A stretch of 54,502 nucleotides of DNA from contig NZ_LWSK01000027.1 of the NCBI RefSeq assembly GCF_001642955.1, positions 1 to 54,502 on the forward strand, given 5' to 3'. Shown one piece after another: positions 11,246 to 31,827 of the stretch. The first letter of the stretch is position 1; every line of letters starts with the position of its first letter. This DNA comes from Rubripirellula obstinata. Its GTDB lineage: Bacteria > Planctomycetota > Planctomycetia > Pirellulales > Pirellulaceae. A program made the position numbers and the translations under genes. The notes beneath the pieces were generated by a model that ran no database searches, had not been told where the DNA came from, and saw nothing but the letters and a program-made list of their open reading frames with translations.

Positions 11246-11318
11246 TCCCCTGTAGCTCAGTTGGTAGAGCAGGCGGCTGTTAACCGCCTTGTCGCAGGTT
11301 CGAGTCCTGCCGGGGGAG
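11246..11318 (+). tRNA. tRNA-Asn (GTT)
   Basis: A 73-nucleotide cloverleaf. The acceptor stem is TCCCCTG/CGGGGGA with discriminator G, the D-arm reads GCTCAGTTGGTAGAGC, the anticodon stem GGCGG/CCGCC holds CTGTTAA with anticodon GTT, and the T-arm is GCAGG TTCGAGT CCTGC. CCA is not encoded. Its 3' third (11294-11318) lies inside the integration core of element B, so the present 3' end was supplied or restored by recombination. Confidence 0.96.
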
Positions 11319-12659
11319 CTGATGGTCGGTGTCACAAGTGGCACCGACTAGACCGGACTCGCCATTAAGCCCGCTTTTTGCGGGCTTTTTCTTTTGGGGG
11401 CGTCTCGTGGCGGCTGCTGACTGCTTCGGGTTTTGTGACTCTGAATCGCCCGTTTGGGAATTTACTGCTTCGCCTTTTGCTGCGCCTTCCCCTGGTGTTT
11501 GGGCATTTGGTGTCTCGAAAATGCTTCGGGTTTCCATCGCCGCTTTGAAAGTCGCTTTCGTGGCCATCGCGTAGTGATCCATGGCGACCGCGATGCTGTT
11601 GCCGCACCATTCAGTCACGTCCTTGGCCGGGAAGCGGGCGAGTAGTTCTGTTTCGCGACTCGCTCGCAAGTTTTGCAACAACTTTGGCCACGGTTTGTGG
11701 CCGGCTCGCTCGACAATCTTCTTGAACGTCGTGCCCAGGTTTTGATCGTGGCGGCGGTATCGGTTGATGACGTGAACGGCTCCCTCGGGGGCCGCATCCC
11801 AGGCGGCTTCCAGGTATGGACTTAGCTCGGGAAAGATCGGGCACACTCGGACGCCACCGCCCTCGTGATGCTCGACCTTCGGTTGCCTGAGCACCATGAA
11901 ACCTTCCGGCAAGTTCACGTCGGTCCATGCGAGGTTGACCACTTCGGTCGGACATCGCAGCGCTCCGAAACGGCATAACGCGATGATCGTTCGCCAATCC
12001 AAGCACGGAGCGGCTTCGATGCAGTCGTAAGCAACGTCGGCGGTGACGAAGTGTTGCCGTGCCTTGTTGCCTCGTGTGTGCGTGACGATGTCGGCGAACG
12101 GGTTTTCGATCGCATAGCGGCGGCGGATCGCTTCTTTCCACAACGCTTTCGCTCGTCCGCACCGGCGGCGGACCGTGTCGTCGGCGTGTCCCTTGCCGCC
12201 GGTTTGCCGGTTGAAGCGTTCGGTGAGCAACCATTTGCGAAAGTCGTCGGCTTCGTGCGGTTTGATCGTGTCGATGATCCGATCGGCTTTGAAGAATTCA
12301 AGCAGTGGGCCGGTCGCGGCTTCGTAGTTCTCGACCGACGAGGGTTTCCATTGCGGGTTGAGTTTGCGGAACTCGTCGATCCATGCTTCGAGCGTTCGCC
12401 GCTGTCGCGGAGCTTCGCACAAACCGAGCGTCACCATCCGATCGCGGATGCTGCCTTCGAGCGTTGCCAACCAGCCGGCAGTGCTGGCGTCGAGTGAATC
12501 GCCGGAAGTTTTGGCGGCGATCAATCGTTCGACGCGGCGGCAGACTTCTTCGGCGTTCTTCTTGGTGACTTGGCCGAGGCGGAGCGTTTGGCGTTTGCCG
12601 TCGCTGTCGGTGTATTGAATCCAACGATGCTTGTTGGGGCGGTTGATGATCGAGGCCAT
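11280..12659 (-). CDS. int: Tyrosine-type integrase of element B
   Basis: 459 residues from the ATG at 12659 (AGGAATCG upstream); the open frame continues upstream but without protein-like sequence. An N-terminal arm/SAM-like region (about 1-175) precedes the catalytic domain. The catalytic domain has R235 in GALRCPTE, LRASRETEL for the second arginine box (the usual HxLR histidine position is Q) and the nucleophile Y363 in MDHYAMA. A basic linker (RRPQKKKPAKSG) ends the native protein. The last codons are encoded by the antisense of tRNA-Asn (QLPRQDSNL), and the stop lies at the anticodon. In the excised circle the frame would continue into the tail at 28009-28178. Confidence 0.93.
   Translation of the reverse strand: MASIINRPNKHRWIQYTDSDGKRQTLRLGQVTKKNAEEVCRRVERLIAAKTSGDSLDASTAGWLATLEGSIRDRMVTLGLCEAPRQRRTLEAWIDEFRKLNPQWKPSSVENYEAATGPLLEFFKADRIIDTIKPHEADDFRKWLLTERFNRQTGGKGHADDTVRRRCGRAKALWKEAIRRRYAIENPFADIVTHTRGNKARQHFVTADVAYDCIEAAPCLDWRTIIALCRFGALRCPTEVVNLAWTDVNLPEGFMVLRQPKVEHHEGGGVRVCPIFPELSPYLEAAWDAAPEGAVHVINRYRRHDQNLGTTFKKIVERAGHKPWPKLLQNLRASRETELLARFPAKDVTEWCGNSIAVAMDHYAMATKATFKAAMETRSIFETPNAQTPGEGAAKGEAVNSQTGDSESQNPKQSAAATRRPQKKKPAKSGLNGESGLVGATCDTDHQLPRQDSNLRQGG
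11294..11319. other. attL core of element B
   Basis: These 26 bases, covering the T-arm and 3' acceptor strand of tRNA-Asn, recur exactly at 28179-28204. A 19-of-23 match lies at 34306-34328. This is the classic att geometry of tyrosine integrases that target tRNA 3' ends. Confidence 0.9.
11367..11390 (+). terminator. Rho-independent terminator downstream of tRNA-Asn
   Basis: AAGCCCGC / GCGGGCTT stem with a TTTTT loop followed by a T-rich tail. It stops tRNA transcription before it invades the integrase gene. It lies antisense within the integrase coding sequence (basic linker region), so it was brought in by the element. Confidence 0.8.
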
Positions 12660-12709
12660 GATTCCGATTCCTATTGAGTTGGTTTGATTGTAAAGATTGA
12701 GTTTGAATG

Positions 12710-13216
12710 TCAAATGTTTTGTTGCCGGATGCGGTTGGTTTGTCGCAACCAGCGTTGCGTTCGTTTGCGGCGTTCTTCTGCATCGGGGTCGCATTGCGAA
12801 CAGTGCCAGGCCAACCCGAGTGTTTGCGAATCGCAGTAGCGACCGCACGAACAAACGGGAACTTCGTCAATGTCAACTTCAATCAGGTCGTCGAGTTCGG
12901 TGGCGGCTTCCGCGTTGATGATCCAGGTGCCGTCGTCGTCGTCGGGTTCCGCTTCGATACGTTCTTCTTCTTCTTCGAGCGGCGATAAGACCTCCGGTGC
13001 GTTGGGTGGTTCGTTGTCGGTTGGCAACGATCCGGCGAAGCGGTGGAACATCACCGGCACTCCCCTGGGGACCGGCACTACCGGCACTTGCGGCACTGTT
13101 TTGACGTGTCGTTCGTGTCTGGGAGTGACTGGAGCGGCAGAATCGCCGCGATCAGTGCCGGTAGTGCCTGTAGTGCCGATGTCTCGGCAGTGCCGGTGTT
13201 TGTTTTCGGCGACCAT
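12710..13216 (-). CDS. Small zinc-ribbon protein with 3-residue repeats
   Basis: 168 residues from the ATG at 13216, two bases after the helicase stop. A longer frame upstream overlaps the helicase and is unlikely. The N-terminal third has Gly-Thr-Thr and Val-Pro repeats (GTTGTTGT, VPVVPVP), encoded by a 9-base iteron-like array. An acidic stretch follows (EEEEERIEAEPDDDD). A treble-clef or zinc-ribbon-like cluster, CSCGRYC with HCSQC about 12 residues later, is near residues 125-150, and the C-terminus is basic. It is co-oriented with primase, helicase and integrase, which suggests a DNA-binding or replication-initiation role. No family is recognised. Confidence 0.7.
   Translation of the reverse strand: MVAENKHRHCRDIGTTGTTGTDRGDSAAPVTPRHERHVKTVPQVPVVPVPRGVPVMFHRFAGSLPTDNEPPNAPEVLSPLEEEEERIEAEPDDDDGTWIINAEAATELDDLIEVDIDEVPVCSCGRYCDSQTLGLAWHCSQCDPDAEERRKRTQRWLRQTNRIRQQNI
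13053..13197. repeat. Inverted clusters of the 9-mer ACCGGCACT (iteron-like)
   Basis: On the left (13053-13097) five consecutive 9-base blocks include ACCGGCACT three times plus TGCGGCACT. On the right (13154-13197) the reverse complement AGTGCCGGT occurs twice with AGTGCCTGT and AGTGCCGAT. About 56 bases separate the clusters. The arrangement lies next to primase and helicase genes, where a replication origin is expected. Alternatively it is a by-product of the 3-residue protein repeats. Confidence 0.6.
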
Positions 13217-13218
13217 GA

Positions 13219-14883
13219 CTAGAAACCTTCCAATGATGAATTGGCGGAAAGTTCGTAGCCGTATCGCTTCGCGACATCGGCGACTTCGCTTGCGTTGAGC
13301 CGATACCAGCGTTTGCCATTGGATCGCTGAACGCGGAAACCGTAGCGACGAAGCACCGCCGAAACTCGGCGTGGATTCCAACCGTCCTCGAAGGCGTCGG
13401 GGTCGATGTCCTTGGCGGACTCGAAAACGTCGCCTGGTGTGAAGCGTGGTTTCGATCCGGCCAGTTCATGCAACGCGGACAACAACGCGGGGTCGGCTTC
13501 CGGTGTGGCGTCTTCGACTTCGTGTTCGAGTTGCCCGGCGGCGTGTCCGATCACGAAGTCCAACAATTCCGCGTCATCGCAAAGAGCGGCGATGCGAAAT
13601 AATGGTTCCCAGCGTTCGGCGTCACGATTCGCCAGCGTTGATGCGGGCGACGGCGTGACCAGTAACGTCGCCGAACGTTCCAACATCCAAGCGTGCAGTA
13701 AATCGCGGATGCGTTGTTCGTCTTCAGGGGAATCATCAAGCGACCGACCGGCTCGCGGGCTGCCAGTGGAGGCTCGCGACAAACGCACCGTGATGCAACG
13801 CGACGACAGAGCGGGCGGAAGCCCACGGATGCAAGCCAGCAGCTTCGGTGCATAAACATCGAACGAAACCGATCGGAACGAATCGCCTGATGGTTCCAGC
13901 CGGTTGGCTCGTCCGCCGCGTCGATAGCCCGACAGCAAGATCGACGTGATTTCGGAAACTTCCGGCGATCGGTCGTCTTTCAAGCGTTCGGCTTCGTCCA
14001 GCAGCAGCGTTCCACCGCGAGCGTGCAGCGACCGAAACACGTTCGCGGCAGTGGTGTTGGAACTGAACATCGGGCGAAAGACCATGCGGCCGATCAAGTC
14101 CATCGTTCGCGTCTTGCCGGAACCGGCGGGACCGGCCAGATACAAGTACGGCACCGCCGGGAACAACGGATAGCAATACGACAACATGACCCACAACGAC
14201 AGCGTGGCGTTGTATCCAACGCAGCCGCTTTCACCGTCGCTTGGCAATTCGACGTAGCGGTCGATGCGATCCATTACGGCGTTCAAGACTTCCGCCGTCG
14301 TCGGCGTCAGTTTACCCGCCGTCCATGCGTTGCGAGATTCCATCGACCATCGGCAAAGCTCGGTCACATCGGCGACCGATGGCAGCGGCGGCATCGGGTG
14401 AACGTGCAACGCTTGGTCGCCGCAGACCACCGAGGTTTCCAATTCGCTGGCCGATCGTTTGCCGCCGGACTTGGCGTACAACGTCCAGACGCAATCGGTT
14501 CCGTTGCGACTGCCCAGCAGACGCGGAACGACGATGCCCGAAAAGTCGCGGCGGATGATGAGTTCCGGCCGCGTCAATTCCATCGCGTTCAGTTCGTCGC
14601 CCCGCGATTGCTCCGGTGCGTCGGCTTGTTCGCGTTCGCGTTGCCGTTCGATGTCGGCGAGCAACTTCAATAGCTGCGTGTCGATTTCCAGCGGCGTGAA
14701 GCGTGGTAGCTTCGCGTGAATCGCTCGGCCAAACTTCGACCGATCCGATGCTCGGTTCAGATCGAGTTTGTCGCGGTGCACTTCTTCGTCGCCCAGCGTT
14801 GCGATCACGGTCACGGTGTCACCGCGTCCGTGGCGTTCGATGGCGAGCGAAAGCGGTTCGACGATTTCTTGTTGTTCTTCCAT
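13219..14883 (-). CDS. AAA+/SF3-like replicative helicase
   Basis: A 554-residue P-loop ATPase with Walker A GPAGSGKT (around residue 252), Walker B TLLLDEAE (around 294) and an arginine-rich region, SRCITVRLSRAS. The layout fits the D5-like/DUF3631 helicases of satellites and plasmids, which unwind the element origin together with a separate primase. A winged-helix-like C-terminus (about 490-554) may bind DNA. It lies 10 bases after the primase stop with AGGAAA before its ATG, and two bases before the zinc-ribbon gene, so xis, primase, helicase, zinc ribbon and int look like one operon. Confidence 0.88.
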   Translation of the reverse strand: MEEQQEIVEPLSLAIERHGRGDTVTVIATLGDEEVHRDKLDLNRASDRSKFGRAIHAKLPRFTPLEIDTQLLKLLADIERQREREQADAPEQSRGDELNAMELTRPELIIRRDFSGIVVPRLLGSRNGTDCVWTLYAKSGGKRSASELETSVVCGDQALHVHPMPPLPSVADVTELCRWSMESRNAWTAGKLTPTTAEVLNAVMDRIDRYVELPSDGESGCVGYNATLSLWVMLSYCYPLFPAVPYLYLAGPAGSGKTRTMDLIGRMVFRPMFSSNTTAANVFRSLHARGGTLLLDEAERLKDDRSPEVSEITSILLSGYRRGGRANRLEPSGDSFRSVSFDVYAPKLLACIRGLPPALSSRCITVRLSRASTGSPRAGRSLDDSPEDEQRIRDLLHAWMLERSATLLVTPSPASTLANRDAERWEPLFRIAALCDDAELLDFVIGHAAGQLEHEVEDATPEADPALLSALHELAGSKPRFTPGDVFESAKDIDPDAFEDGWNPRRVSAVLRRYGFRVQRSNGKRWYRLNASEVADVAKRYGYELSANSSLEGF

Positions 14884-14892
14884 GATCGTTTC

Positions 14893-15951
14893 CTAGTTCC
14901 TTTCCGTGGAGTTTGGGACGCTGCGGCGGACGGCCAGCATCAGAGCGTCGGCTTCGTGCAACAGTTGATCGAAGTGACCGGGCGTGCCGCCGCCGGCGAT
15001 GAACTTGCGGGCGTCGTCACCGGGGTTGCCGGGTGTGATGATGCGAACCGTGTTCGCGACGGTGACCAGCAACCGTGCCAACCGTGTCGCTCCGTTGCGT
15101 CCTGCTTCGTCATGGTCAGCAACGATGGCGACATCGTGGCATCCGATGCGACGAACGAAGTTCACCGTCGCGGGCATCGCCCCTTGGCAACTGGGGCGAC
15201 CGATCGCGGGCAAACCGATCGACAACATCGCGGCGGCATCGCTCGGCCCTTCGCAGATGAACAGCCGGGGAATCTTCGTTGCGATTCCGTCGGGAACGAA
15301 CAGCCCGCCGCGTCCACCGCGATAGCTCCATTTGTCGCCATCGTGTCCCCGAAGCCGCAATCCGATGCAGCGACCGCCCGAATCGACCATCGGCCACGTC
15401 GTCGCTTGGTCCGCTTCGCTGTAGCCGACTCGCAAACGAACCAGCGTTCGCGGTTCGACTTGCAGTTTCTTGGCCAACGACTCTCGACGTTCGCGGCTCA
15501 TTTCGCAGAAGAACTGTTTTGCCAAATCGTCGAAGTCGATCGACGGTTCAAGCGGTTCGGCGTTCGTTCCGCGTTCACTGGTCACGGTTCGGCGTGCGAT
15601 CGGTCGCGGCTTCGATTGGCTTTCGCTTTTCACGCCAAGCCAATCGGCCAACCATCCCAGCGTTGCCCGAAAGTCCAAACCGAGAATCCATTGCAGCGTT
15701 GCCAAGCCATCGCCGGGCGACGGACTGGAACCCTTCGTGAAGCAGTGGCGACAATGAACCGCTCCGCGTCCATTGATGTTCGGGAACGCGGCGAAGCGAT
15801 CACGTCCACCACACTTCGGGCACGGATGCCCTTTGCCGTTGAGCTTGTCGGCGTCGATGCCGGCGGCGATCAGAATGTCAAACCACCGACCGGCCGCGAG
15901 TGATTTCAATTCCGCAACGCTCGGAACCGTGTTGTTGATTCGCTGGTTCAT
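14893..15951 (-). CDS. Toprim DNA primase
   Basis: A 352-residue primase. A CHC2-type zinc ribbon lies near the N-terminus (CPKCGGRDRF then VHCRHCF, about residues 44-72). A Toprim domain (about 228-300) has the glutamate motif FICEGPSDAAAML and DHDEAGRNG. A helical linker joins them. The helicase function is on the next gene rather than fused, unlike P4 alpha or T7 gp4. It overlaps the HTH gene upstream by four bases (ATGA). It probably primes replication of the excised element. Confidence 0.92.
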   Translation of the reverse strand: MNQRINNTVPSVAELKSLAAGRWFDILIAAGIDADKLNGKGHPCPKCGGRDRFAAFPNINGRGAVHCRHCFTKGSSPSPGDGLATLQWILGLDFRATLGWLADWLGVKSESQSKPRPIARRTVTSERGTNAEPLEPSIDFDDLAKQFFCEMSRERRESLAKKLQVEPRTLVRLRVGYSEADQATTWPMVDSGGRCIGLRLRGHDGDKWSYRGGRGGLFVPDGIATKIPRLFICEGPSDAAAMLSIGLPAIGRPSCQGAMPATVNFVRRIGCHDVAIVADHDEAGRNGATRLARLLVTVANTVRIITPGNPGDDARKFIAGGGTPGHFDQLLHEADALMLAVRRSVPNSTERN

Positions 15952-16178
15952 CGCTTGCCCCCATCGGTGGAGGCGGCGAGTTCACCGACGACGTAGCGAT
16001 CGAGTTCCGCGATGGGAAACAGAACGCGACGACCAAACCTGATCGGCCGAATGGGGCCGTGCGGGACGGTCCGCCGATCGAGCGTGCGGACGCTGATGCC
16101 AAGACGTTTGGCGGCTTCGGTTCGACTGATGCAGTCGATGGTTCCGTGTTGCAACGGAACGGAGATAGCTTCGGCCAT
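15948..16178 (-). CDS. Excisionase/AlpA-like HTH protein
   Basis: A 76-residue protein from the ATG at 16178, chosen over a longer frame because AGGGGGG lies just upstream. It is a single winged-helix/MerR-like DNA-binding domain (SRTEAAKRLGISVRTLDRR, then GRRVLFPIAELDRYV), the type used by excisionases and AlpA regulators. It is the first gene of the leftward operon and is translationally coupled to the primase. It could direct excision, activate the operon, or both. Confidence 0.85.
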   Translation of the reverse strand: MAEAISVPLQHGTIDCISRTEAAKRLGISVRTLDRRTVPHGPIRPIRFGRRVLFPIAELDRYVVGELAASTDGGKR

Positions 16179-16810
16179 GGGATTCCCCCCTGTAGGTGAC
16201 CAAGACAACGGAAACGGAAAAACCGGCAGCCCGTTTCCACGTCTTGCCCATCGCCGACGCCGCAAAGCGTTGACGAATGGAGCCGAAACGTCACAATGGC
16301 GTTACCACACGGCGGCACTGTGATGCGTTTCAGACGTGTCCGGGACCGTCCGAACTTGAAGCCCCGCGGGACACCAATCCTGCGGGGCTTCTTTCGTTTG
16401 GCGACGCGAAAAACCGGGAATCCGCCCCGGTGTTCACCCGTCCACCAACGCCAGCAATCCTACCAGACCGCCGGGGGCTGTCCAGCAATGCCAGCAAAGT
16501 GACGAGGTTCGCTTCGCCTTCCGTTGCCACCCAGTGCTTCTCCTGTCTACTCCGTTCCACTGGGGTCATCCCGAAAAATCTTTTCGGGAAAGTTCCATGG
16601 TCGTGGACATCGGTGACAAGTTAGGTCACAGCCGGCAGAAACTTTTTCTCGAAATAGTTTGGCGGCTCAGTTCAACCCGGTTCGTCGGCAGTCTTTCACA
16701 GTCGCGAGCGACCCAAAACGGGCGTGAACTCGACCATTGAAACGGCGTCAAAACGTGCGACTCTTGCAGGAGGAAACCCTGTTTGCTTGTTCGTTCACGG
16801 AGGACGTTTG
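16179..16810. other. Divergent control region between xis and the protease-thioredoxin gene
   Basis: A 630-base gap without a convincing gene. It holds a strong GC-rich hairpin at 16358-16391 and a perfect 8-bp hairpin with a 3-base loop at 16570-16588 (CCCGAAAA/TTTTCGGG). It must hold the promoters of the leftward replication operon and of the rightward gene at 16811. A GGAGG lies just before the latter start. Confidence 0.6.
16358..16391 (+). terminator. GC-rich hairpin, probable terminator
   Basis: A perfect 10-bp stem GAAGCCCCGC/GCGGGGCTTC with a 14-base loop, followed by TTTCGTTT. The T-run is short, so termination is likely but not certain. Confidence 0.5.
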
Positions 16811-18073
16811 ATGTGTCGCGTTGCTACTGCTGTCGCCCTGTTGTTGATTCTTCCCGCCGTCATTTTTGCGGTTCCGCCCGAAAGCTCGACCGACATCGCG
16901 TTGCGTGCGTCGTGTCGGATTTTCGCCGGCAACGCCCGAGGCAGTGGAGTCATCTTCGATGCCGACGCGGACAACTACCGCGTGCTCACAAACGCTCACG
17001 TCGTCGGCAAAACCGGCAACCGCGTGAAGTTGGAATTTGAACACTCGGGTTATCGGTCCGATCCGATCGTTGGTCGTGTCGTTCGTTCGCACATCGCCCC
17101 CAACACTTCGATTGACTTGGCGATTGTCGAACTGCCGCGAACTTCGTTTCCCGGTCCGATGCCCGTTGTGCCGCTTGCAGGTGTCGCCAGCAAGGATGCT
17201 GCGACCGTGCTGACGGTGGGTGCCCAAGGAGGGGCCGCCGTCAGCCTGCAACGCGGTCACATCGTTAGGCAAACTCGCGGCTTGATCTACTACAAGCCCG
17301 AAGCACTGCCCGGTCGATCTGGTTCGCCGTTGTTCGACGCCGATGGCTCTCGCGTCGTCGGCTTGGTCGCATGGCGAACCGGCGATGGCCACGGACTCGC
17401 CATGAACGCCGCTCGGGTGCGTTCGTTTGTTCGCGGCGAGGTGTCCCACGACGACATCGAAGCCGACTTGCCCGACGATGCGATTCCGCTCTGGCAATCC
17501 CGCGTGCGTTTGGTCCTCGTGACCGCCGCCGGTTGCCAACCGTGCGAACTGCAAAAGCGTTCGATGCCCGACGACGTTCGCTACGAAACGGTGGACATCG
17601 AAAAGGCGAACGCCAAAGGCTACCGCGTCCGCACGACACCGACGCTGATGGTGTTCGTCGATGGCAAGCTGGAAAGCCAATCCGCCGGACTGCTTCGCGG
17701 CGATGCGTTGCGATCGTTTCTGGACCGTTGGGGTTTCGGCAAAGACCACACCCAGCCCGACACTGAAGCCCACGACAACGACGACTTCAACCCGTGGACG
17801 AACCCAGGCCGCTGGGAACGCGGCCCGATCCGCGACCGCATCGACAACGCCAAAGACCGCTTCGCATGGTGGCTGCTGGGCAAATGGCTCGGCTTCGCCG
17901 CTGGCGGAGTAGCGATCGTGTTCCCGTGGCTGTTCTTTATCTATCGAGCGTTACGCAAACTGCGTAGCGACGATGGCGGCGGCTGCCCCGCGAACAAAGC
18001 ACGAACCCGACGCCGTTCTCCGCGAGGACCGCGAAAGTCCCAACAGACCAACCGGCGGGGGAACGGGCCGTAA
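16811..18073 (+). CDS. Secreted trypsin-like protease fused to thioredoxin and a membrane anchor
   Basis: 420 residues from the ATG at 16811, which has GGAGG upstream and opens a signal peptide (VATAVALLLILPAVIFA). Residues about 25-210 are a trypsin-like domain with H63 (NAHVVG), D102 (SIDLAIV) and S170 (GRSGSPLF). Residues about 228-315 are thioredoxin-like with C242-QP-C245 and the cis-proline motif TTPTLMVF. A transmembrane helix follows (about 353-380) with a basic tail. The predicted orientation puts protease and redox domain outside the cytoplasm. A truncated homologue exists in element A (28427-28909), so the gene belongs to the element backbone rather than to the variable cargo. Function is unknown. 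Confidence 0.85.
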   Translation: MCRVATAVALLLILPAVIFAVPPESSTDIALRASCRIFAGNARGSGVIFDADADNYRVLTNAHVVGKTGNRVKLEFEHSGYRSDPIVGRVVRSHIAPNTSIDLAIVELPRTSFPGPMPVVPLAGVASKDAATVLTVGAQGGAAVSLQRGHIVRQTRGLIYYKPEALPGRSGSPLFDADGSRVVGLVAWRTGDGHGLAMNAARVRSFVRGEVSHDDIEADLPDDAIPLWQSRVRLVLVTAAGCQPCELQKRSMPDDVRYETVDIEKANAKGYRVRTTPTLMVFVDGKLESQSAGLLRGDALRSFLDRWGFGKDHTQPDTEAHDNDDFNPWTNPGRWERGPIRDRIDNAKDRFAWWLLGKWLGFAAGGVAIVFPWLFFIYRALRKLRSDDGGGCPANKARTRRRSPRGPRKSQQTNRRGNGP

Positions 18074-18130
18074 GTCATTTCCTGGAAATCGTTTGTGGCG
18101 ACGAGCACTGTTTGCGGGAGGAAAATCCTG

Positions 18131-18159
18131 TTGACTGAACCCCATTCGTCCGATATGAT
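18131..18159 (+). promoter_or_regulatory. Strong sigma-70-like promoter before the HEPN locus
   Basis: TTGACT and TATGAT separated by exactly 17 bases, near consensus. Transcription should start near 18166, upstream of a structured segment and terminator, not directly at the HEPN gene. Confidence 0.7.
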
Positions 18160-18165
18160 TCAGGC

Positions 18166-18273
18166 GTACTTACCAATCTAGCAAAGGGCCTTCGGGGCGG
18201 ATTGTGCGTGCACTTCCAAACCCTCGGCCCTGACCATACGAAAGCACCTGTCCCGACGGCAGGTGCTTTTTTT
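18166..18273 (+). ncRNA. Candidate small structured RNA upstream of the HEPN gene
   Basis: Between a near-consensus promoter and a strong terminator there is about 108 bases with no open frame. It can form an outer stem AGGGCC (18185-18190)/GGCCCT (18226-18231) enclosing GGG/CCC and a small GTGC-GTGCAC palindrome. An alternative pairing TCAGG (18160-18164)/CCTGA (18229-18233) gives a 74-base tRNA-sized fold followed by CCA, but without canonical D or T loops. It may be an independent small RNA, an RNA antitoxin-like partner, or an attenuating leader of the HEPN gene. No known RNA family is recognised. Confidence 0.4.
18241..18273 (+). terminator. Rho-independent terminator between the leader RNA and the HEPN gene
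   Basis: A 10-bp stem AAAGCACCTG/CAGGTGCTTT with a 9-base loop and a run of seven or more T. It ends 13 bases before the HEPN start codon, so HEPN expression depends on read-through or a cryptic promoter. Confidence 0.85.
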
Positions 18274-18286
18274 ATGCTGAAACGCC

Positions 18287-20020: not shown

Positions 20021-20240
20021 GCGATCCACGGAACGATCCCTCTGATTGCGGCCAGATGCCGTCGCCTTCCCCGTCGTGATACGGGCTTGATAAACTCGAG
20101 CCTCACAAACCTCGGGCCGGCGTCCGGCGGCTGATTTCGCGGGATACCCCCAATCTGCCGCCACGCGTTAGCGTCCGGTTACGACGACACGAACACAGAA
20201 CCGTGGGCAAACGCCCGGCGGCTGATAACGGGAATGGGCT

Positions 20241-22640
20241 ATGGTCAAGAAGACGGGTGACGGCGCAACGCACAGCGGCGGCAAGATGCAGTTGAGCGAT
20301 GCGGAAAAGCAGGATGTGATTCGGCATTTGGATGCCGGTCGGCCGTTGCCGGACAAGTATCGGTTTTTGTTGTTCGAGGACAAACGCGAAGTCGAGTTGG
20401 TTTGGAACGGCAAGACCAACGAGGTTTGCAATGTCGTGCTGCCGTTTCAGACGATCGAACAAGTCGATGAACCGCGAGCGGAAACCGAAGCCGACGCGGT
20501 GGCCGAAGACAAGGCGACCTATCAACCGACGTTCTTCAGTTTGGACGAGCGAGGCCGGCAACTCAAAGGCTGGACCAACAAGCTGATCTGGGGCGACAAC
20601 AAACTGATCCTCTCGTCGCTCAAAAACGGCCCCATGCGAGAAGAGATCGAAAAGCAAGGCGGCATCAAACTGATCTACATTGATCCGCCGTTTGATGTCG
20701 GGGCGGACTTTTCGATGGATATTGAGGTGGGTGATGGTGAAACGCTGACCAAGCGTCCCAGTATCTTGGAGGAGATTGCGTATCGCGATACTTGGGGGAA
20801 GGGGGCTGATTCATTTATATCAATGCTTCATGAAAGGCTGGTTTTGCTCCGAGACTTACTCGCCCAAGACGGAAGTATCTACGTTCATATGGGACCTCAA
20901 GTTTCGCATCTAGTTGAAGCTGCAATACGAGAGGTGTTTGGTAACTCAGGAGCAAATGCAGCCATCACTTGGAAGAGGGTTACAGCACATGGAGATAGTA
21001 AGCGTTGGGGGATAATTCACGACAACATCATCTGGCAATCTAAATCTGCAAAATTCATTTGGAACCCACAATACAATCCTTACGAAGAAAAGTATTTAGC
21101 CTCGAAGTACACGCACAAAACAGAGGACGGAAGACGTTACCGGCTAGACAATCTAACGAGCCCGCATGCACGACCAAACATGACTTATGAGTGGAGGGGG
21201 CACCAGCCTCCGGCAATGGGTTGGCGTTATGAATTCTCCACCATGGAGCGATTGCATGGCGAGGGGAGGATTGAGTTGCCGAAGAAAAAGGGAGGTCGAC
21301 CTCAACTTCGACGCTTTCTTGACGAGGGACAAGGCGTTCCAGTTGGTTCGATCTGGACACGTATCTCTCCAGTCAACTCCCAAGCAAAGGAAGACACTGG
21401 CTATGATACACAGAAGCCTGAGTCTCTACTTGAACGGGTAATCAACGCGTCTTCCAACCACGGAGATTTGGTCGTCGATGTCTTTTGCGGCTCCGGAACC
21501 ACCGCCGCCGTCGCCGAAAAACTTGGCCGCAAGTGGATCGTCAGTGACCTTGGCAAATTCGCGATCCACACCACCCGCAAACGTATGATCGGCGTTCAGC
21601 GTGAACTCAAAGAAGCCGGACAAGACTACCGGGCTTTTGAAATCCTGAACCTGGGCAAGTACGAACGGCAACACTTTGTCGGCGTGAACCCGAACCTTCG
21701 CGAGGAAGAGAAACAGCAGCAACTCGAGGCCAAAGAAGCCGCGTTCCTGGAATTGATCTTGAACGCCTACAAGGCGGAAAAGACCGACGGTTTCGCCACC
21801 TTTCACGGCAAGAAGTCGGGGCGACTGGTGGCGATCGGACCGGTCAACTTGCCGGTGACCCGGTTGTTTGTCGAAGAGATCATCTTGGAATGTCGCAAGA
21901 AGCAAATCACCAAAGTCGACATCCTGGGCTTCGAGTTTGAAATGGGCTTGTTCCCCAACGTGCTCGACGAGGCTCGCGGCAAGGGCATCGACATCGCTCC
22001 CAAATACATCCCCGCCGAAGTGTTCGACAAACGGGCGATCGAAAAGAACCAAGTCGTCTTTCACGACGTGGCGTTCATCGAAGTCCGACCGCACCTGAAA
22101 GAAGAATCCATCGGCGTCGAATTGACGGACTTTTCGGTGTTCTATTCGCAAGAGTCGATCGCGGCGGCGGAAGAATCGCTGGGCAGTAAAAAGAAGGCGG
22201 GCAGCAAGATCGTCGTGGATCGTGGCCAGATCGTGAAAGTCATCAAGGACAAAAAAGGAGTGATGAGCCGCGAAGTGCTGACGAAGACTTGGACCGACTG
22301 GATTGATTACTGGTCGGTCGATTTCGACTACGAGAGCAAACGCGAGATCATCCGTATCCAGTCGCCCGAAACGGGTGAATCGACCGAGGAATGGACGGGC
22401 GAGTATGTGTTTGAAAACGAGTGGCAGAGTTTCCGGACTCGCAAGGACCGCAGCCTGGAACTGAAAAGCGTTTTCCATTCCTGTAAACCCGGTCGCCGCA
22501 AAGTCGCCGTGAAGGTGGTCGACATCTTCGGCAACGACACCATGACGATCGTCGACGTGGACGTGCCGGCGTCGTCAAAGAAAGGCGGCAAGAAGAAGGC
22601 CGCGTCGAAAAAGACCACCGCAAAGAAGGGAGGCAAGTAA
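20241..22640 (+). CDS. mod: Type III restriction-modification system methyltransferase (Mod)
   Basis: A 799-residue beta-class DNA N6-adenine methyltransferase: the catalytic motif DPPF (about residue 150) comes before the AdoMet motif FCGSGT (about 415). The target-recognition region lies between them. It recognises the site for both modification and cleavage in complex with Res. A long C-terminal extension (about 480-799) ends in a Lys/Ala-rich, histone-H1-like tail (KKKAASKKTTAKKGGK). The region 20790-21440, encoding the recognition part, is visibly AT-richer than both flanks. Its stop overlaps the res start by one base. Short CGGCGGCTGA repeats precede the gene. Confidence 0.93.
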   Translation: MVKKTGDGATHSGGKMQLSDAEKQDVIRHLDAGRPLPDKYRFLLFEDKREVELVWNGKTNEVCNVVLPFQTIEQVDEPRAETEADAVAEDKATYQPTFFSLDERGRQLKGWTNKLIWGDNKLILSSLKNGPMREEIEKQGGIKLIYIDPPFDVGADFSMDIEVGDGETLTKRPSILEEIAYRDTWGKGADSFISMLHERLVLLRDLLAQDGSIYVHMGPQVSHLVEAAIREVFGNSGANAAITWKRVTAHGDSKRWGIIHDNIIWQSKSAKFIWNPQYNPYEEKYLASKYTHKTEDGRRYRLDNLTSPHARPNMTYEWRGHQPPAMGWRYEFSTMERLHGEGRIELPKKKGGRPQLRRFLDEGQGVPVGSIWTRISPVNSQAKEDTGYDTQKPESLLERVINASSNHGDLVVDVFCGSGTTAAVAEKLGRKWIVSDLGKFAIHTTRKRMIGVQRELKEAGQDYRAFEILNLGKYERQHFVGVNPNLREEEKQQQLEAKEAAFLELILNAYKAEKTDGFATFHGKKSGRLVAIGPVNLPVTRLFVEEIILECRKKQITKVDILGFEFEMGLFPNVLDEARGKGIDIAPKYIPAEVFDKRAIEKNQVVFHDVAFIEVRPHLKEESIGVELTDFSVFYSQESIAAAEESLGSKKKAGSKIVVDRGQIVKVIKDKKGVMSREVLTKTWTDWIDYWSVDFDYESKREIIRIQSPETGESTEEWTGEYVFENEWQSFRTRKDRSLELKSVFHSCKPGRRKVAVKVVDIFGNDTMTIVDVDVPASSKKGGKKKAASKKTTAKKGGK

Positions 22641-25324
22641 TGGCTCTGCATCCAGAATTCCCCTCGTCGCCCCATGCGATCTTGGCCCCCGAGATTCGTT
22701 GGTTTCCCGCTGACGAAGCGATGCGGGAAACGACCAGCGATAAACTGATGCCGCCGTTGGTGGCGATGCTGCGTCGCAAGGTGCAAGAGTTTCGCGATAG
22801 CGATTACGTCGGGGCGTCGGCGACCAGTGCGTCGCTGCTGCGTTGGTGGTTCAAGACCGAACACCTGTTGCCGCAAGCCGACGGCACAACGGCCGCGTTC
22901 GAGTATTACTTTGCCCAGCGGGAAGCGATCGAAACGATCGTTTACCTGATGGACGTAGTTGGTTTTCAAGACAAACACGACCTGATGCGTTTCGATAGCA
23001 GCGGCATTGTCTCGGGCGGCATGTTCGATGAAACGTGGCGGCGGTTGGTGGTGAAGATGGCGACCGGTGCCGGCAAGACCAAGGTGATGAGTCTGGCGCT
23101 GGCGTGGAGCTATTTCCATCGACTGTACGAAGAAGACTCGCAAATGTCGCGAAACTTCCTGGTGATCGCTCCCAACATTATTGTGCTGGACCGCATCTAT
23201 AAAGATTTCCAAGGTCTGAGGATCTTTCACGAAGACCCGGTGTTGCCCGACAACGGGTTCGATGGCCACTATTGGCGAGATGATTTCCAGTTGACGTTGC
23301 ACTTGCAGGACGAGGTGCGAGTCACGCAGTCGACGGGCAACATTTTCTTGACGAACATTCACCGCGTTTACGACAACAATACACCCGACCCGTCGCCCGA
23401 TGACGACGACACGATGGATTATTTCCTGGGGAAGCGGCCGACGGGCGAGACGACGGATTCCAAAGTCGACCTTGGCGTGATCGTTCGCGACATCGACGAA
23501 TTGATGGTGCTGAACGACGAAGCTCATCACATCCACGACAACAAGTTGGCGTGGTTCAAGTCGATCGAGGACATCCATAACCGACTGGTGCAAAAGGACG
23601 GGCGGCTTGCGCTGCAAGTTGACGTGACGGCGACACCCAAACACAACAACGGTGCGATTTTTGTTCAAACGATTTCGGACTATCCGTTGGTCGAGGCGAT
23701 TTCGCAGAACGTGGTGAAGCATCCGGTGTTGCCCGACGCGGCCAGTCGGACGCGGTTGTCGGAAAAACAGTCTTCGCGTTTCACCGAGAAATACGCGGAC
23801 TATCTGGACCTGGGCGTGATCGAGTGGCGATCGGCTTACGAGGAACACGAAAAGCTGGGCAAGAAAGCGATCCTGTTCGTGATGGTCGACGATACGAAGA
23901 ACTGCGACGAGGTGGCGGATTACTTGTCGGCGAACTATCCGGACTTGGCCAGCGATGACGCGGTGTTGACGATTCACACGAAAAGCAACGGTGAGATTTC
24001 CGAGGCGACCAGCGGCAAAAAGAAAGAAGAGCTCGAGGAACTTCGCAAGATCGCCAACAACGTCGATGATCCGCTGAATCCGTGCAAGGCGATCGTTTCG
24101 GTGTTGATGCTGAAAGAGGGCTGGGACGTTCGCAACGTGACAACGATCGTGGGCCTGCGGGCCTATTCGGCGAAAAGCAATATCTTGCCCGAACAAACGC
24201 TCGGTCGCGGTTTGCGAAAGATGTATCCCGGCGACACCGAGGAATACGTCAGCGTGATCGGCACCAACGCGTTCATGGAGTTCGTCGAAGGCATCCAGGC
24301 CGAGGGCGTTGAGCTGGAACGCAAGGCGATGGGCGAAGGCACGAAGCCCAAGACGCCGTTGGTGGTAGAAGTCGACAACGAGAATGAAAAGAAGGACGTC
24401 GATGCACTAGATATCGAGATTCCCGTGCTGACGCCGCGACTCCGCCGCGAATACAAGAACCTGGCAGATATGAAGACCAGCGGACTGGGCAACAAGCCGG
24501 TCGAGTACAAGAGTTTCTCCGAGGAAGAACAACGCGAAATCGTGTTCAAGGACATCACGACCGACGAGATCACTCACACGACGATCTTGGATACGGCGGG
24601 GATCGCGGATTGGCGTAGCGTGATCGGCTACTTTACCCAAACGGTGATGCGTGAATTGCGTTTGGTCAGCGGCTACGAAGTGCTGTACGCGAAAGTGAAG
24701 GCGTTTGTCCGCGATGAATTGTTTGGGAAGACGGTTGATTTGGAAGACCCAAATACGCTTCGCAATTTGTCGGAATTGGCAGCCACGAAAACGGTCATCA
24801 ACGCGATGAAGAATGCGGTGAACGAGTTGACGATCACCGAATCAGGCGACGCTGAAATCCGCAGCACGATCAAACTTCGCGAAACACGGCCTTTCGTGAC
24901 GAAGGACCAAGCGTACATGCTGCCAAAGAAATCGGTGTTCAACCGAATTGTTGGCGATAGCCACTTGGAATTGCAGTTCGCAGCGTTCTTGGAAGATTGC
25001 GATGACGTGGTTTCCTACGCAAAGAACTATTTTGCGGTCCACTTCAAGTTGGACTATGTCAACGCAGACGGGAACATTTCAAACTACTACCCCGATTTCA
25101 TCGTTCGATTGAAAGACGGACGTATTTTGATTGTGGAGACAAAGGGGCAAGAAGATTTGGATGTTCCACCGAAGATGGCTCGACTGAAACAGTGGTGCGA
25201 TGATGTGAACCAGGTCGCCAATGGTGCGAAGTATGACTTCGTGTTTGTCGACCAGGAGAGCTTTGAGAAGTACGAACCGAAGTCGTGCCAAGACTTGCTC
25301 GATGGATTTACCGAGTACAAGTAG
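22640..25324 (+). CDS. res: Type III restriction endonuclease subunit (Res)
   Basis: An 894-residue superfamily 2 helicase-nuclease. Walker A is TGAGKT (about residue 142), motif II LNDEAHH (about 293), motif III VTATPK, and helicase motif VI lies around EQTLGRGLRKM. The C-terminal PD-(D/E)XK nuclease is at about 815-840 (NYYPDFIV, then IVETKGQ). Res translocates or switches along DNA and cuts near sites left unmodified by Mod. The start codon overlaps the mod stop, so the two are translationally coupled. All key motifs look intact. Confidence 0.94.
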   Translation: MALHPEFPSSPHAILAPEIRWFPADEAMRETTSDKLMPPLVAMLRRKVQEFRDSDYVGASATSASLLRWWFKTEHLLPQADGTTAAFEYYFAQREAIETIVYLMDVVGFQDKHDLMRFDSSGIVSGGMFDETWRRLVVKMATGAGKTKVMSLALAWSYFHRLYEEDSQMSRNFLVIAPNIIVLDRIYKDFQGLRIFHEDPVLPDNGFDGHYWRDDFQLTLHLQDEVRVTQSTGNIFLTNIHRVYDNNTPDPSPDDDDTMDYFLGKRPTGETTDSKVDLGVIVRDIDELMVLNDEAHHIHDNKLAWFKSIEDIHNRLVQKDGRLALQVDVTATPKHNNGAIFVQTISDYPLVEAISQNVVKHPVLPDAASRTRLSEKQSSRFTEKYADYLDLGVIEWRSAYEEHEKLGKKAILFVMVDDTKNCDEVADYLSANYPDLASDDAVLTIHTKSNGEISEATSGKKKEELEELRKIANNVDDPLNPCKAIVSVLMLKEGWDVRNVTTIVGLRAYSAKSNILPEQTLGRGLRKMYPGDTEEYVSVIGTNAFMEFVEGIQAEGVELERKAMGEGTKPKTPLVVEVDNENEKKDVDALDIEIPVLTPRLRREYKNLADMKTSGLGNKPVEYKSFSEEEQREIVFKDITTDEITHTTILDTAGIADWRSVIGYFTQTVMRELRLVSGYEVLYAKVKAFVRDELFGKTVDLEDPNTLRNLSELAATKTVINAMKNAVNELTITESGDAEIRSTIKLRETRPFVTKDQAYMLPKKSVFNRIVGDSHLELQFAAFLEDCDDVVSYAKNYFAVHFKLDYVNADGNISNYYPDFIVRLKDGRILIVETKGQEDLDVPPKMARLKQWCDDVNQVANGAKYDFVFVDQESFEKYEPKSCQDLLDGFTEYK

Positions 25325-25699
25325 CCACTGAATCGCTTTCGATCAGTCTAGCGTCGACCGTCTTGCAAAAGGCGACGCTACCAGTGCCGCCGAAACGATC
25401 GAGCAAGTCTCTGTTCCGATCAAGCGCTTTCACGGCGGGGCAATGCTGTTTGGGTTGGAGTACATCCAGCGTGACGATGCCTTGGAGCATCGTCCGTGCC
25501 ACCGGGCTTTGAAGCCCGGTTGAGGCTGTCCGCAAGCGGGTAGCCAACTTCTTTCGAGGGTCAACGTCGAACGCGATGCCACCGCTGCGTTCGTCCGTTC
25601 CGGTCGTCCGCTCGGGTCAAACATCGGCCCCCCCATCGCACAAGTGCGGGGGGCCGATGTTCGACCTTTCGCTCCCGACCTTCACTCCCTCTCTTCGCT
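25325..25699. other. Intergenic region with a 13-bp hairpin
   Basis: No convincing gene. A perfect 13-bp stem at 25621-25633/25648-25660 (ACATCGGCCCCCC and its complement) lies 40 bases before the next small gene. It has no T-run and may be a structural or transcription-attenuating element. Confidence 0.55.
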
Positions 25700-26005
25700 A
25701 TGCACATTCACGATTCCGACATCCCCGTCTTCGTTCGCCGTCGTCGTCCCTGTCGGGACTTGGTTGTCGCCGTGCTTTCGCACGTTTACTCGGTCCTGCT
25801 GCTCGCCGTGTTGTACATCGCTTTCGCGATGCGAATGATGTCCGGTGGGTTCATCCGCTACACGCGGCTCCACCGCGTTCCCGTCGAATGGCTCTGGCTC
25901 GTCGATTACGACTACACTCCGCCGTTCTGGGTCCAATGGGCACACATCCGCTACATCGACGCGATCTACGACGCCGTTGAACTTCACTACCCGGTCGAAC
26001 CGTGA
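25700..26005 (+). CDS. Small membrane protein of element B
   Basis: A 101-residue frame with strongly coding-like codon choice (C/G in third positions). It has one clear hydrophobic helix (VLSHVYSVLLLAVLYIAFAM, about residues 25-45) after a basic RRRRPCR segment, and an aromatic-rich C-terminus (WLWLVDYDYTPPFWVQW). No family is recognised. It lies between the res gene and the palindromic repeat block and has no counterpart in element A. Confidence 0.6.
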   Translation: MHIHDSDIPVFVRRRRPCRDLVVAVLSHVYSVLLLAVLYIAFAMRMMSGGFIRYTRLHRVPVEWLWLVDYDYTPPFWVQWAHIRYIDAIYDAVELHYPVEP

Positions 26006-26345
26006 CCGGCGGGGCCGGTCGTGACCGGGCCTTGCGGCCCAGTTCGCAACACGGCCCAGAGCGGTCGCAAGCGTTGGTCAAACGGTTTCCCGGTGGAGAG
26101 CGTTTCGGTGGTTCAGCCGTTCTCTACCAAGTAGGAACTCCGGCTACGACGTACTGATGTCGCCGTCTCCGTTCGTACCTCACTGCGCCGACAACATCAG
26201 AACGTCTCCGCCTACGTCTGTTGTTTTCCCGCTTCGCGGATGGACGTCATCACTTCGCCTCCGCTACTGCCGCCGCCTGCGTTCGTTCCTCACTCCGGCG
26301 ACGACATCCGCTACGGCTACGCGATGACCACCATCCGCTGCGCTC

Positions 26346-27085
26346 GGGCCATCCTTGGCCCATCTTTCGGCGGCATCCTTGCCGCCGACGCCAGGCTGTC
26401 CGCAAGCGAGATTCAAACGTCAATCGCTTCGGTCGGGTGGGGCCGTGGTGCGAACTGCCCCCGCACTTTCACGAGCGGTGCTGCGCCATCCATGGCTTCG
26501 CCGTTTCCTTGCGGGCATCCTGCCCTGGTGCCCTCGGCGGCTGGCGGGCTGGCGATTCAATGTTGGTTCGCTTCGATTCAGTTCATTGGTGGTTCAGACC
26601 GTTCCCCGTTGGTCCGCCGTCGGGATCGGCAACGCTCCCATCGTTCGTCGTGCAAACCTTGTTCGTGTTGGAGAATCAATCGAGGTGCAAACTCTTTCGC
26701 TTCGGTCGGTCGCTTCCCTGCCGATCCCGATGCCCTCGGGCACGGGCGGCCGGCTCGCTTCGCTCGGCCTGCACTCCGGCCACCGCTCGCGGTCTGGTGA
26801 TTCAAACCGTGTTCGCTTCGGTCAAGTTGATTGGCGGTTCAAACATTGTTCGTGTTGGTCCGCTTCCATGGCCTGCGTTCCGGCGGCATCCATGCCCCGA
26901 CCGCCCATTCTCCGCCGACCCTCCATGATCGGCGTGCCTGCCGGCAGCTACCAGCGTGCGGGCATCGTGCCCAATGTGGGCGACGGCATCCATGCCGTCG
27001 CTGCCGTCGGCTTCGCCGCCGCGAGTCCAGTCAGTCGTCCAGCGTGGCGGGCATCGTGCCCGGTGTGCGGCGGCATCCTGCCGCC
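26346..27085. repeat. Array of hairpins with shared ATC loop, copy 1
   Basis: At least seven short inverted repeats share a loop of the form ATCCTT, ATCCAT or ATCGT but have different stems: GGGCC/GGCCC (26346), GGCGGC/GCCGCC (26369), GGGC/GCCC (26512), GGGC/GCCC (26959), GACGGC/GCCGTC (26982), GGGC/GCCC (27049) and GGCGGC/GCCGCC (27069). Interspersed are recurring GGTTCAAAC-like and TTCGCTTCGGTC words. Overlapping open frames here are not considered genes. Confidence 0.7.
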
Positions 27086-27138
27086 GAAGAAAAACCGATC
27101 GCCTTCGGCGACCTCAGCTTTGTGATCGCAGACTAAAT

Positions 27139-27396
27139 TCAGCATTGCAAGAATGTTTCGCCGTGCTTCATAAGACGGCCGACGCACCGTCCGTTGGAGT
27201 TTTCGACCTGGAATATACCAAATTGGCTATCAACTTCCGTTGCGAGGTACCGAACCCGATCGCCGGACAGAACCAGGTAGCTATGTTTCCCGTTGTCGTA
27301 CAGGGTGACTTTCCAAGATCGACCATCAAAAGCTACGCGATCGGGCAATTCGAGGCCTTCGTCTCTATTCGGCGTGCTCAACCGCGGCTCCAACAA
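27139..27396 (-). CDS. Possible small protein inserted next to parE1
   Basis: An 85-residue frame beginning one base after the parE1 stop codon, with protein-like composition (FDGRSWKVTLYDNGKHSYLV). It is unique to copy 1 of the right-end module, where it is the main difference from copy 2. No family recognised; it could be a third gene of the toxin-antitoxin operon or a remnant. Confidence 0.45.
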   Translation of the reverse strand: MLEPRLSTPNRDEGLELPDRVAFDGRSWKVTLYDNGKHSYLVLSGDRVRYLATEVDSQFGIFQVENSNGRCVGRLMKHGETFLQC

Positions 27397-27397
27397 A

Positions 27398-27709
27398 CTA
27401 TCTACTCGATTTTGGTACGCCGTCAGAAAACATCGTGATCCAATCTCGTGACCCGTGGATCACGTTGGCGACTTCGATGCCGCCAGGCATCGGGTAGAAG
27501 AAAATGACATAGTCGTTCGCCGGTCGCGGTGGCGAGAACACGCGAATGCCGGGCAGCAGGTCTTCGCGGAGCGTGCCGACGTTCGGGTGATCGGCAAGCA
27601 CTTGAAACGTGCTATGCAACGCTTCGAGAATCGCAACGGCGTTGCTCGGGCAATCGGCGATCTCGTCAAGATTCGCGTTGGCGTCGTCGGACAGACGATA
27701 GCGGCTCAC
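27398..27709 (-). CDS. parE: ParE-family toxin, copy 1
   Basis: 103 residues of the RelE/ParE superfamily (helical hairpin, then PGIRVFSPPRPANDYVIFF and the typical VIHGSRDW end). ParE toxins usually poison DNA gyrase; the actual target here is unknown. The start overlaps the antitoxin stop (ATGA). It matches the paralogue at 33522-33833 closely from residue 20 to 94 and differs at the extreme N-terminus (LSDDANAN versus LAIAAVAD) and C-terminus. Confidence 0.87.
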   Translation of the reverse strand: MSRYRLSDDANANLDEIADCPSNAVAILEALHSTFQVLADHPNVGTLREDLLPGIRVFSPPRPANDYVIFFYPMPGGIEVANVIHGSRDWITMFSDGVPKSSR

Positions 27710-27957
27710 GACTGCGACCGAGTCGCCGCCTTCGCTTTCAATTCATCGAAACGAGCAGCCAATGCGTCGTCGTCGTACTCCGTGAACTGTCCATCATCGA
27801 GTTGTCGTCGGCTCTCTTTCAATCGCTGAACCAACGCTTCGCGTTTGCGGAGCAAACCAACGCCCGCGTCGATCGCTTCGTCACGTGACGCGAACACGCC
27901 GCCGGCGACCTGTCCATCGACGTAGGCTTCGTTTTCGGGGGAAAGTGATTGGCTCAT
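27706..27957 (-). CDS. parD: ParD-family antitoxin, copy 1
   Basis: 83 residues from the ATG at 27957, which has AGGAGA upstream. The N-terminal ribbon-helix-helix (SLSPENEAYVDGQVAGG, ASRDEAIDAGV) binds DNA and represses the operon; the C-terminus wraps the toxin. It lies 51 bases after the detached integrase tail on the same strand, so in the excised circle it would follow int directly. Its C-terminal toxin-binding segment (GQFTEYDDDALAARFDEL) differs most from the second copy. Confidence 0.9.
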   Translation of the reverse strand: MSQSLSPENEAYVDGQVAGGVFASRDEAIDAGVGLLRKREALVQRLKESRRQLDDGQFTEYDDDALAARFDELKAKAATRSQS

Positions 27958-28008
27958 TTGCGATTTCTCCTGGGACACTTGGGCGACCTTCATTCTATCA
28001 AGCAGCAA

Positions 28009-28178
28009 TCATCGCGTCGAAGCCCGATTCTGAACGATCGTTTTGATGATCCCTTTGGTCACGTCGTCCAGAGTGGACCACGATTGCAGAACGATGCGCA
28101 AAGTGGAGCAATTTGAGATTGCTTCGCATTCTGCTTCGGGTATACTCTTGCCATCCCCTTTTCGTTGGGAAACACCGA
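28009..28178 (-). other. Detached integrase C-terminal tail (in frame across att)
   Basis: An open frame of 56 codons that enters the att core in the same frame as the integrase at the left end, so the circular form of element B would encode a 511-residue integrase ending here with TGA. It has no start of its own. The tail is conserved at 34133-34305 as protein (EAECEA, WSTLD-VTKGII-TI-QNR), with many third-position differences. It appears to be a real C-terminal domain separated from its gene by integration. Confidence 0.75.
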
Positions 28179-28204
28179 GCAGGTTCGAGTCCTGCCGGGG
28201 GAGC
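28179..28204. other. attR of element B
   Basis: A 26-base exact copy of the tRNA-Asn 3' end (GCAGGTTCGAGTCCTGCCGG, then GGGAGC). Upstream sequence is element B, while downstream sequence is the integrase 3' end of the older element A. Confidence 0.9.
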
Positions 28205-28342
28205 CTTCGTGGACAGTAGCGAAATGCTGCTGCCCACCAGTTAACGCCAAAGGCCGATGCACCCGCATCGGCTTTTTTGCGTTTCGACCCGTGTTTTACG
28301 GGGCTTTCGCTCGCGGGTGTTTTTTTCGGTTGCGTCTTGGAC
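28205..28342 (-). pseudogene. Integrase 3'-end remnant of element A
   Basis: In the frame that crosses att, the antisense encodes a basic Lys/Pro-rich linker (TQPKKTP, GSKRKKADAG) followed by GVNWWAAAF and the tRNA-derived PRQDSNL. This parallels the end of the element B integrase. The rest of the gene is missing. The same segment recurs at 34329-34465. Confidence 0.65.
28253..28277 (+). terminator. Terminator antisense to the element A integrase end
   Basis: Stem GCCGATGC/GCATCGGC with a 4-base loop and a run of six T. It corresponds in position to the terminator at 11367 of element B and to 34376 of the oldest remnant. Confidence 0.85.
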
Positions 28343-29609: not shown

Positions 29610-29610
29610 T

Positions 29611-31825: not shown

Positions 31826-31827
31826 AC

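Follow-up and report, generated by a model that had tools for sequence, protein, structure and literature searches.

The 54,502-nucleotide stretch of Rubripirellula obstinata analysed here (the window, to whose positions all coordinates refer) carries one recognised transfer RNA (tRNA) gene, a tRNA-Asn (gtt) found by ARAGORN at 11246-11319 on the plus strand, together with a tyrosine integrase gene, int, whose reading frame ends inside it. The integrase frame (11280-12659, minus strand) starts with an ATG at 12659 and ends at 11280 within the tRNA, giving a protein of 459 residues whose last residues are read antisense to the tRNA. This protein matches the phrog_1 integrase profile (5e-26) and, in Pfam, PF13102 above the cut-off and PF00589 below it, and has no NCBIfam match at E<=0.01. 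The final 26 base pairs (bp) of the tRNA (11294-11319) form an attachment (att) core that a repeat search places a second time, exactly, at 28179-28204, the two cores being 16,885 bp apart; when a 25-base part of the core is searched for with a tolerance of three mismatches, the window returns only two sites, each without a mismatch, and 100 shuffled sequences return none. We define element A as 11294-28204, with the whole tRNA, its integration target and restored by it, at one end, an exact 3′ fragment of the tRNA at the other, and the integrase inside. Beyond the second core the integrase frame continues on the minus strand through 28009-28178, a severed tail reading LGVSQRKG...WSTLDDVTKGIIKTIVQNRASTR and then TGA. 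Joining the two att sites in silico keeps the frame and gives a protein of 511 residues, in which the last four residues of the integrated form, RQGG, are replaced by 56 others for a net gain of 52. Counted on the sequence, the tail stop at 28009 lies 51 bases from the ATG at 27957 of parD (27706-27957, minus strand, PF03693), an antitoxin gene that would follow int at this distance on the circle. A sequence-only reading of the window had proposed this arrangement, and its coordinates for the 459-residue frame, for the exact core and for the 56 open codons up to the TGA are right; a scripted join reproduces its 511-residue product, and its spacing to parD agrees with ours.

The arrangement recurs among relatives of the host. 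In a search of 241 genomes of the same bacterial family (the host family), 80 of which hold a homolog at E<=1e-60, 120 places were listed, and we analysed 75 integrase loci (L numbers below) in stretches of up to 20 kb, two of them loci of the window's own genome from outside the 120; the loci are best-scoring matches, non-random and mutually related. An antisense tRNA lies just downstream in 65 of the 75, and the 10 without a recognised tRNA are excluded from the frame count. Between the end of the aligned catalytic region and the tRNA the integrase frame is open in 62 of 65 loci, compared with 11 and 5 for the other two frames. An upstream second copy of the tRNA end is found for 40 loci, and the joined frame crosses the core in 37 of these elements, a count with a binomial probability of 7e-15 against an expectation of 1/3 when loci are treated as independent, although they are related. 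Past the core the frame stays open for 61 codons on average, compared with 32 and 20 for the other two, and it is the longest of the three in 36 elements. One of the three elements that fail to cross, L055, has a tail match in the integrase frame, making a 38th, and its stop probably arose at the placed join. On the tRNA strand, 38 of the 65 loci have a terminator-like hairpin no more than 150 nt away from the tRNA, where mononucleotide shuffles predict 6.6 and a control stretch of the gene yields 10. It thus seems that the element supplies the tRNA with a terminator that lies antisense to the integrase linker. The window has such a hairpin, with a T run after it, at 11367-11387 on the plus strand, downstream of the tRNA at a place where the minus strand carries the integrase frame; the scan of that single region found one hairpin against 1.6 expected in shuffles and is not significant alone.

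Judged by profile comparison, the severed tails are conserved as protein, and in the integrase frame. Leave-one-out profiles of the post-core sequence recover 28 of 37 tails at E<1e-4 in this frame against 1 and 2 of 37 in the others, with median scores of 18.7 bits against 2.3 and 1.7, and the usual tail motif, by eye, is L..aW..L....r..il.iv/a. The closest full-length relatives by integrase, a paralog in the same genome (L037) and L077, each have a clear tail match close to the far end (E 1.3e-6 and 1.7e-8, respectively) with the shared words EAE-EA and WSTL; the tail profile finds an upstream tail in these two and in L056 and L070, four of the 10 loci that lack a tRNA. A fragment from strain K23_9 (L082) keeps QSWSTLD and scores only 6.5e-3. 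The ratio of nonsynonymous to synonymous divergence (dN/dS) is 0.34-0.96 over ten tail pairs, although values as low as these also occur in some control frames; in eight host-family pairs, one with dS saturated, dN is smaller than dS. We treat both results as supporting only. The tail stays conserved although the enzyme loses it at every integration, which points to a use for it in the free form.

The layout extends beyond the host family and is common across the phylum. Genomes drawn from the order, class and phylum, in draws that overlap and include host-family genomes, hold the integrase in 191 of 296 (E<=1e-40), 170 of 297 (E<=1e-30) and 31 of 294 (E<=1e-30) cases respectively; 15 matching genomes of the phylum draw fall outside the class, and the integrase is thus rarer there. 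Outside the host family we distinguish 62 loci, 56 of them with a tRNA, and the frame runs into the tRNA in 53 of 56 against 17 and 10 for control frames, a total that by our own count includes 11 of 11 tRNA-adjacent integrases from outside the class. When 20 such elements were fetched with long flanks, nine had a partner site, nine had none and two were without a recognised tRNA, and all nine with a partner site cross the core in frame. Thirteen tRNA isotypes are represented among 121 loci, and the T-loop is read in all three frames (13, 80 and 22 of 115), which vary even within one isotype (32, 5 and 1 for tRNA-Val), indicating that the crossing peptide is free to change while the open frame is kept. 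The sequence-only reading had named two findings that would speak against it, an attP junction that breaks the frame and homologous integrases that end before the tRNA-derived segment; what we find is reconstructed junctions in frame in 37/40 elements of the host family and 9/9 outside it, and integrases running into the tRNA in 62/65 and 53/56.

Viral contigs offer candidate free forms. Two scans, with near-identical loci dropped, gave 42 distinct integrases with their C-terminus and two without. In L117, L120, L125 and L242, none of which has a tRNA gene close by, integrase and tail share a single open frame and the tail scores 6e-8 or better; a tRNA 3′ end lies within that frame in L120 (20 of 21 bases), L125 (21 of 21) and L242 (20 of 22). 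The integrase DNA of L242 and of L243 is 82% identical over 1,300 nt to that of the integrated L246, the similarity ending in the tRNA-Ser core, past which L242 and L243 continue into the hairpin tail described below and L246 into the rest of the tRNA. The contigs of L131 and L132 (7,286 and 7,314 bp) have terminal repeats of 69 and 123 bp, which are consistent with circles or with terminally redundant ends, and L131, which lacks a tRNA gene, has the 22-bp 3′ end of a tRNA-Val, without a mismatch, within its integrase frame. Together with the frame counts, the uninterrupted gene in some of these contigs bears out, at the level of coding sequence, the earlier proposal that integrated and circular forms encode different C-termini. 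Nine of the 42 (L127, L128, L130, L238, L239, L240, L244, L245 and L252) carry tRNA-like sequence but neither a recognised tRNA gene nor a tail at E<1e-4, and among these L238, L239 and L244, with a tRNA match over 31-61 bases, are probably integrated. Very short C-termini with no tRNA core are seen in L119, L121, L122, L247, L250, L251, L253-L257, L260-L262 and L265-L267. L122 is sister to a long form, suggesting that tail and core may be lost together, and on a tree of 75 integrases long and short C-termini are separated by 10 changes, at least nine of them forced by supported branches, with L132 labelled long by hand because the contig end cuts its gene. Plasmid (tblastn E<=1e-20) and phage (E<=1e-10) collections gave no match to this integrase.

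AlphaFold models of L120 and L242 show a mostly confident recombinase, a long linker mostly below 50 in the predicted local distance difference test (pLDDT), and two C-terminal helices that form a predicted hairpin (residues 457-474 and 477-492 in L120, 463-474 and 477-491 in L242). Foldseek matches the L120 model to XerA (7e-11), Tn1549 Int (7e-11) and lambda Int (1e-10), and by this method the family is a tyrosine recombinase of the lambda-Int/Tn1549 type, with an N-terminal strand domain, a core-binding domain and a catalytic domain. In the 37 elements the core lies 33-82 codons (median 53) past the end of the aligned catalytic region; by residue count this places it in the linker, and integration would therefore spare the catalytic domain and remove the hairpin. 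R235, R332 and Y363 of the window integrase, which we take to be two catalytic arginines and the tyrosine, are invariant in a 16-row alignment (A1). Three residues before R332 the same alignment has Gln in 13 of 16 rows and Val in 3 of 16. Many tyrosine recombinases have a His three residues before that Arg, and the planctomycete family seems to do without one usual active-site residue.

We propose a model for these elements that is very likely in its outline, namely that attP lies within the int frame and that free and integrated forms encode different C-termini; this estimate covers the arrangement of the sites and the pair of coding states. While the element is a free circle, its uninterrupted gene would encode the long enzyme, of 511 residues here, with the attP core in a linker, predicted to be disordered, that joins the catalytic domain to a hairpin of two C-terminal helices. 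Integration at the tRNA 3′ end would cut the gene at the core, so that the catalytic part adjoins the restored tRNA and stops in antisense tRNA sequence while the part encoding the hairpin ends up at the opposite end of the element, and excision would rebuild the gene. The hairpin may act via contacts within the recombination complex, and the two enzyme forms would differ in activity. As the likeliest role, which we put forward tentatively, the hairpin would aid the circle-state reaction (attP x attB), and its loss would bias the element toward staying integrated until an excisionase acts. More tentative still is the extension of this role across the Planctomycetota, in which integration would be a covalent, reversible switch, the hairpin favouring integration and its deletion committing the element until excision. 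Element A encodes an excisionase-family helix-turn-helix (HTH) protein, a candidate directionality factor (15948-16265, minus strand; TIGR01764 at 2.4e-7, phrog_66, HTH_17), and the swap of C-termini would thus be at most one part of the control, a bias.

A number of observations weigh against this model or against parts of it. With an excisionase-like gene present, directionality does not require a tail switch. The severed tail of element A is itself a weak member of the tail family, reaching only E=0.017 in the leave-one-out comparison, and the second copy of the tail in the window (34133-34302, minus strand, frame open), which adjoins a degenerate third core, adds little: the differences between the two, called mainly third-position in the sequence-only reading and taken there as proof of selection, fall 19/12/17 over codon positions 1/2/3 (dN 0.31, dS 0.57), a bias that we do not confirm, and over the last 28 codons they fall 8/3/7, with the ratio in one wrong frame equally low (0.32 vs 0.42). 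This pair alone is weak evidence of coding selection, and the coding case for the tail hence rests on the family rather than on the window. The family profile separates less at a looser cut of E<0.01 (32 vs 18 and 17 of 37); for 25 of the 65 family loci no att partner was obtained; L057 has its tail in another frame, L044 has early stops and no tail, and the integrases of L065, L155, L166 and L210 stop before the tRNA. Outside the host family open lengths also separate less (means of 50 vs 31 and 43 codons), 5 of 9 tails reach E<1e-4, and L219 adds only seven codons. Among the viral integrases only 4 of 42 carry a tail at E<1e-4; L117 has a tail and no recognised core; the tails of L131 and L132 resemble the motif by eye and do not score (E=0.03 and 0.4); L127 and L245 end 5-8 residues past a core of 13-14 bases with no tRNA gene and no tail; and 19 of 42, against any simple picture, have 3-31 residues after the aligned domain with neither core nor tail. 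The hairpin block is predicted with moderate confidence (pLDDT about 65-88) and the predicted template modelling scores are low (0.48 and 0.43). Finally, no empty tRNA-Asn site was found in relatives compared by their flanking genes.

Of the ways to account for the open frames without a long integrase, the least probable is that they arise by chance or follow from other signals, such as the tRNA terminator, that overlap them; GC-rich DNA does have long open frames, and terminator-like hairpins do stand antisense in the integrase frame in 38/65 loci, but control frames are open far less often (11 and 5 vs 62 of 65) and rarely carry the profile (1 and 2 vs 28 of 37), and the tail lies beyond both tRNA and terminator. 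It is also very improbable that the tail is a separate small gene next to attP by chance, as might be thought from its position at the far end of the integrated element and from the window, where its frame belongs to an open frame of 28009-28464, given that it falls in the integrase frame in 37/40 and 9/9 elements against 1/3 expected and that some viral contigs encode integrase and tail in one frame.

Two further explanations accept the layout and assign the tail another role. Mycobacteriophages with integration-dependent immunity, as described in PMC9934374, have attP within the repressor gene; integrating strips the repressor of an ssrA-like degradation tag, and the prophage version terminates in bacterial sequence, at the junction or close to it. 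Since that system shares the att-site layout and the lost C-terminus (PMC9934374, PMC10865867), the planctomycete tail could set protein stability or level and not recombination direction; we consider this improbable, as the tail is predicted to be a folded hairpin rather than a short tag, and an ssrA-like tag was rejected because none of 37 tails ends in AA, LA, VA or AV. The altered gene also differs, being a repressor that loses a degradation tag in the mycobacteriophages and an integrase that loses a predicted hairpin here. Somewhat unlikely, and a stronger candidate than stability, is a hairpin role unrelated to the integration state, such as protein contacts, with the att site lying in the gene only because int and attP make a compact module that moves easily, and with truncation being tolerated but not used for regulation. 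Compactness is named in PMC8371274 as an advantage of archaeal integrases with att in the gene, 19/42 viral relatives are short without core or tail, and the crossing peptide is unconstrained, all of which would fit such a module; what it leaves to be explained is a tail conserved as protein, more weakly outside the host family, although lost from the enzyme at each integration.

The altered form of the Mx8 integrase, IntP, is named IntX. In Mx8, a Myxococcus phage, attP lies in the int coding sequence and int acquires a different 3′ end on integration yet is not inactivated, the altered integrase remaining active with changed specificity, and Mx9 is similar in principle, according to the account in PMC6070905. 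In our own reading of Mx8 Int (AF396866) a tRNA-like peptide, STGLEPV, is followed by a long tail. The likeness of the planctomycete integrases to Mx8 and Mx9, drawn from sequence only, lies in an attP core within the int frame and a C-terminus replaced on integration. The Mx8 integrase matches the planctomycete integrase profile only weakly and generally (E 7e-6), and its tail shows no homology to the planctomycete tail profile (best domain E 0.4); by layout the planctomycete integrases are like Mx8 and Mx9, and by sequence they are another family. Furthermore, Mx8 and Mx9 are single phages whereas the planctomycete layout is common in its family and comes with a conserved tail. In the suicidal integrases of archaea (SSV1, pTN3, pT26-2), as reviewed in PMC8371274, the recombination site lies in the integrase gene, which integration splits, cutting the catalytic part from the N-terminal part into fragments described as inactive; the planctomycete cut falls after the catalytic domain, and these integrases differ from the archaeal type in keeping their catalytic and N-terminal parts together. 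The same review calls gene-disrupting recombinases exclusively archaeal. Islander, which marks island ends by a tRNA and a displaced 3′ fragment, allows overlap with the integrase domain since Mx8 and SSV integrases cross attP (PMC4383910); there attP-crossing integrases are an exception in a filter, and its relevant passages name no family in which crossing is the rule. No description of the planctomycete integrase family is among the open-access literature matches listed, subscription papers being mostly outside that scope.

Element A also carries a ParE toxin gene (27398-27709, minus strand, PF05016) beside parD, a primase with a zinc ribbon and a Toprim-like profile match just under cut-off (14893-15951, minus strand), and a probable type III restriction system made up of a Mod-like DNA methylase (20241-22640, plus strand, PF01555) and a Res-like subunit (22640-25324, plus strand, PF04851). 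Adjoining it is a tandem element B (28205-34328), which is older and ends in a decayed core, a degenerate third copy at 34303-34328 that keeps 20 of 26 bases in the repeat search. No integrase was seen among the frames of element B, which holds an M78 peptidase (30686-31825) beside a DUF4411 gene (31828-32343) and a second parDE-like stretch, and its left-end frame is open across the core into the severed tail of element A (28009-28464). Repeats of the two elements at 26167-27110 and 32543-33499 are 96-99% identical, far closer than the neighbouring parDE copies (85%), which suggests recent exchange between the tandem elements. Just outside the core, 28205-28272 and 34329-34396 differ at 2 of 68 bases in a wider region of about 80% identity; this stretch has a terminator-like hairpin and may be a functional arm. 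A perfect 37-bp inverted repeat with 176 bp between its arms lies outside the elements (39806-40055). The left-flank peptidase (8853-10604), presumably of the S41 type, has a homolog in 20 of 21 other genomes of the genus, and no tRNA-Asn lies within about 1.5 kb of it in 21 loci from relatives, so that gene order around the site differs. The right-flank protein was not found in the 21 other genomes of the genus. Over the 20 kb compared with strain K23_9, alignment to the window is limited to the tRNA together with the end of int and to three further fragments.

In the portions of the literature consulted, the bacterial examples of an integrase altered in this way are Mx8 and Mx9, and in the Planctomycetota, a bacterial phylum, the layout is the usual one for those members of an integrase family that lie beside a tRNA. 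The statement in PMC8371274 that recombinases of the gene-disrupting kind are exclusively archaeal would, as worded in that part of the review, need amending. Integrase proteins read from integrated copies in these genomes would lack their native end. The family also provides many natural elements, and at least one close pair of free and integrated forms (L242 and L246), for studying how a C-terminus controls integration against excision. If the proposed switch is true, the direction of recombination would be partly written in the structure of a bacterial gene, as a rule rather than as a curiosity of two myxophages.

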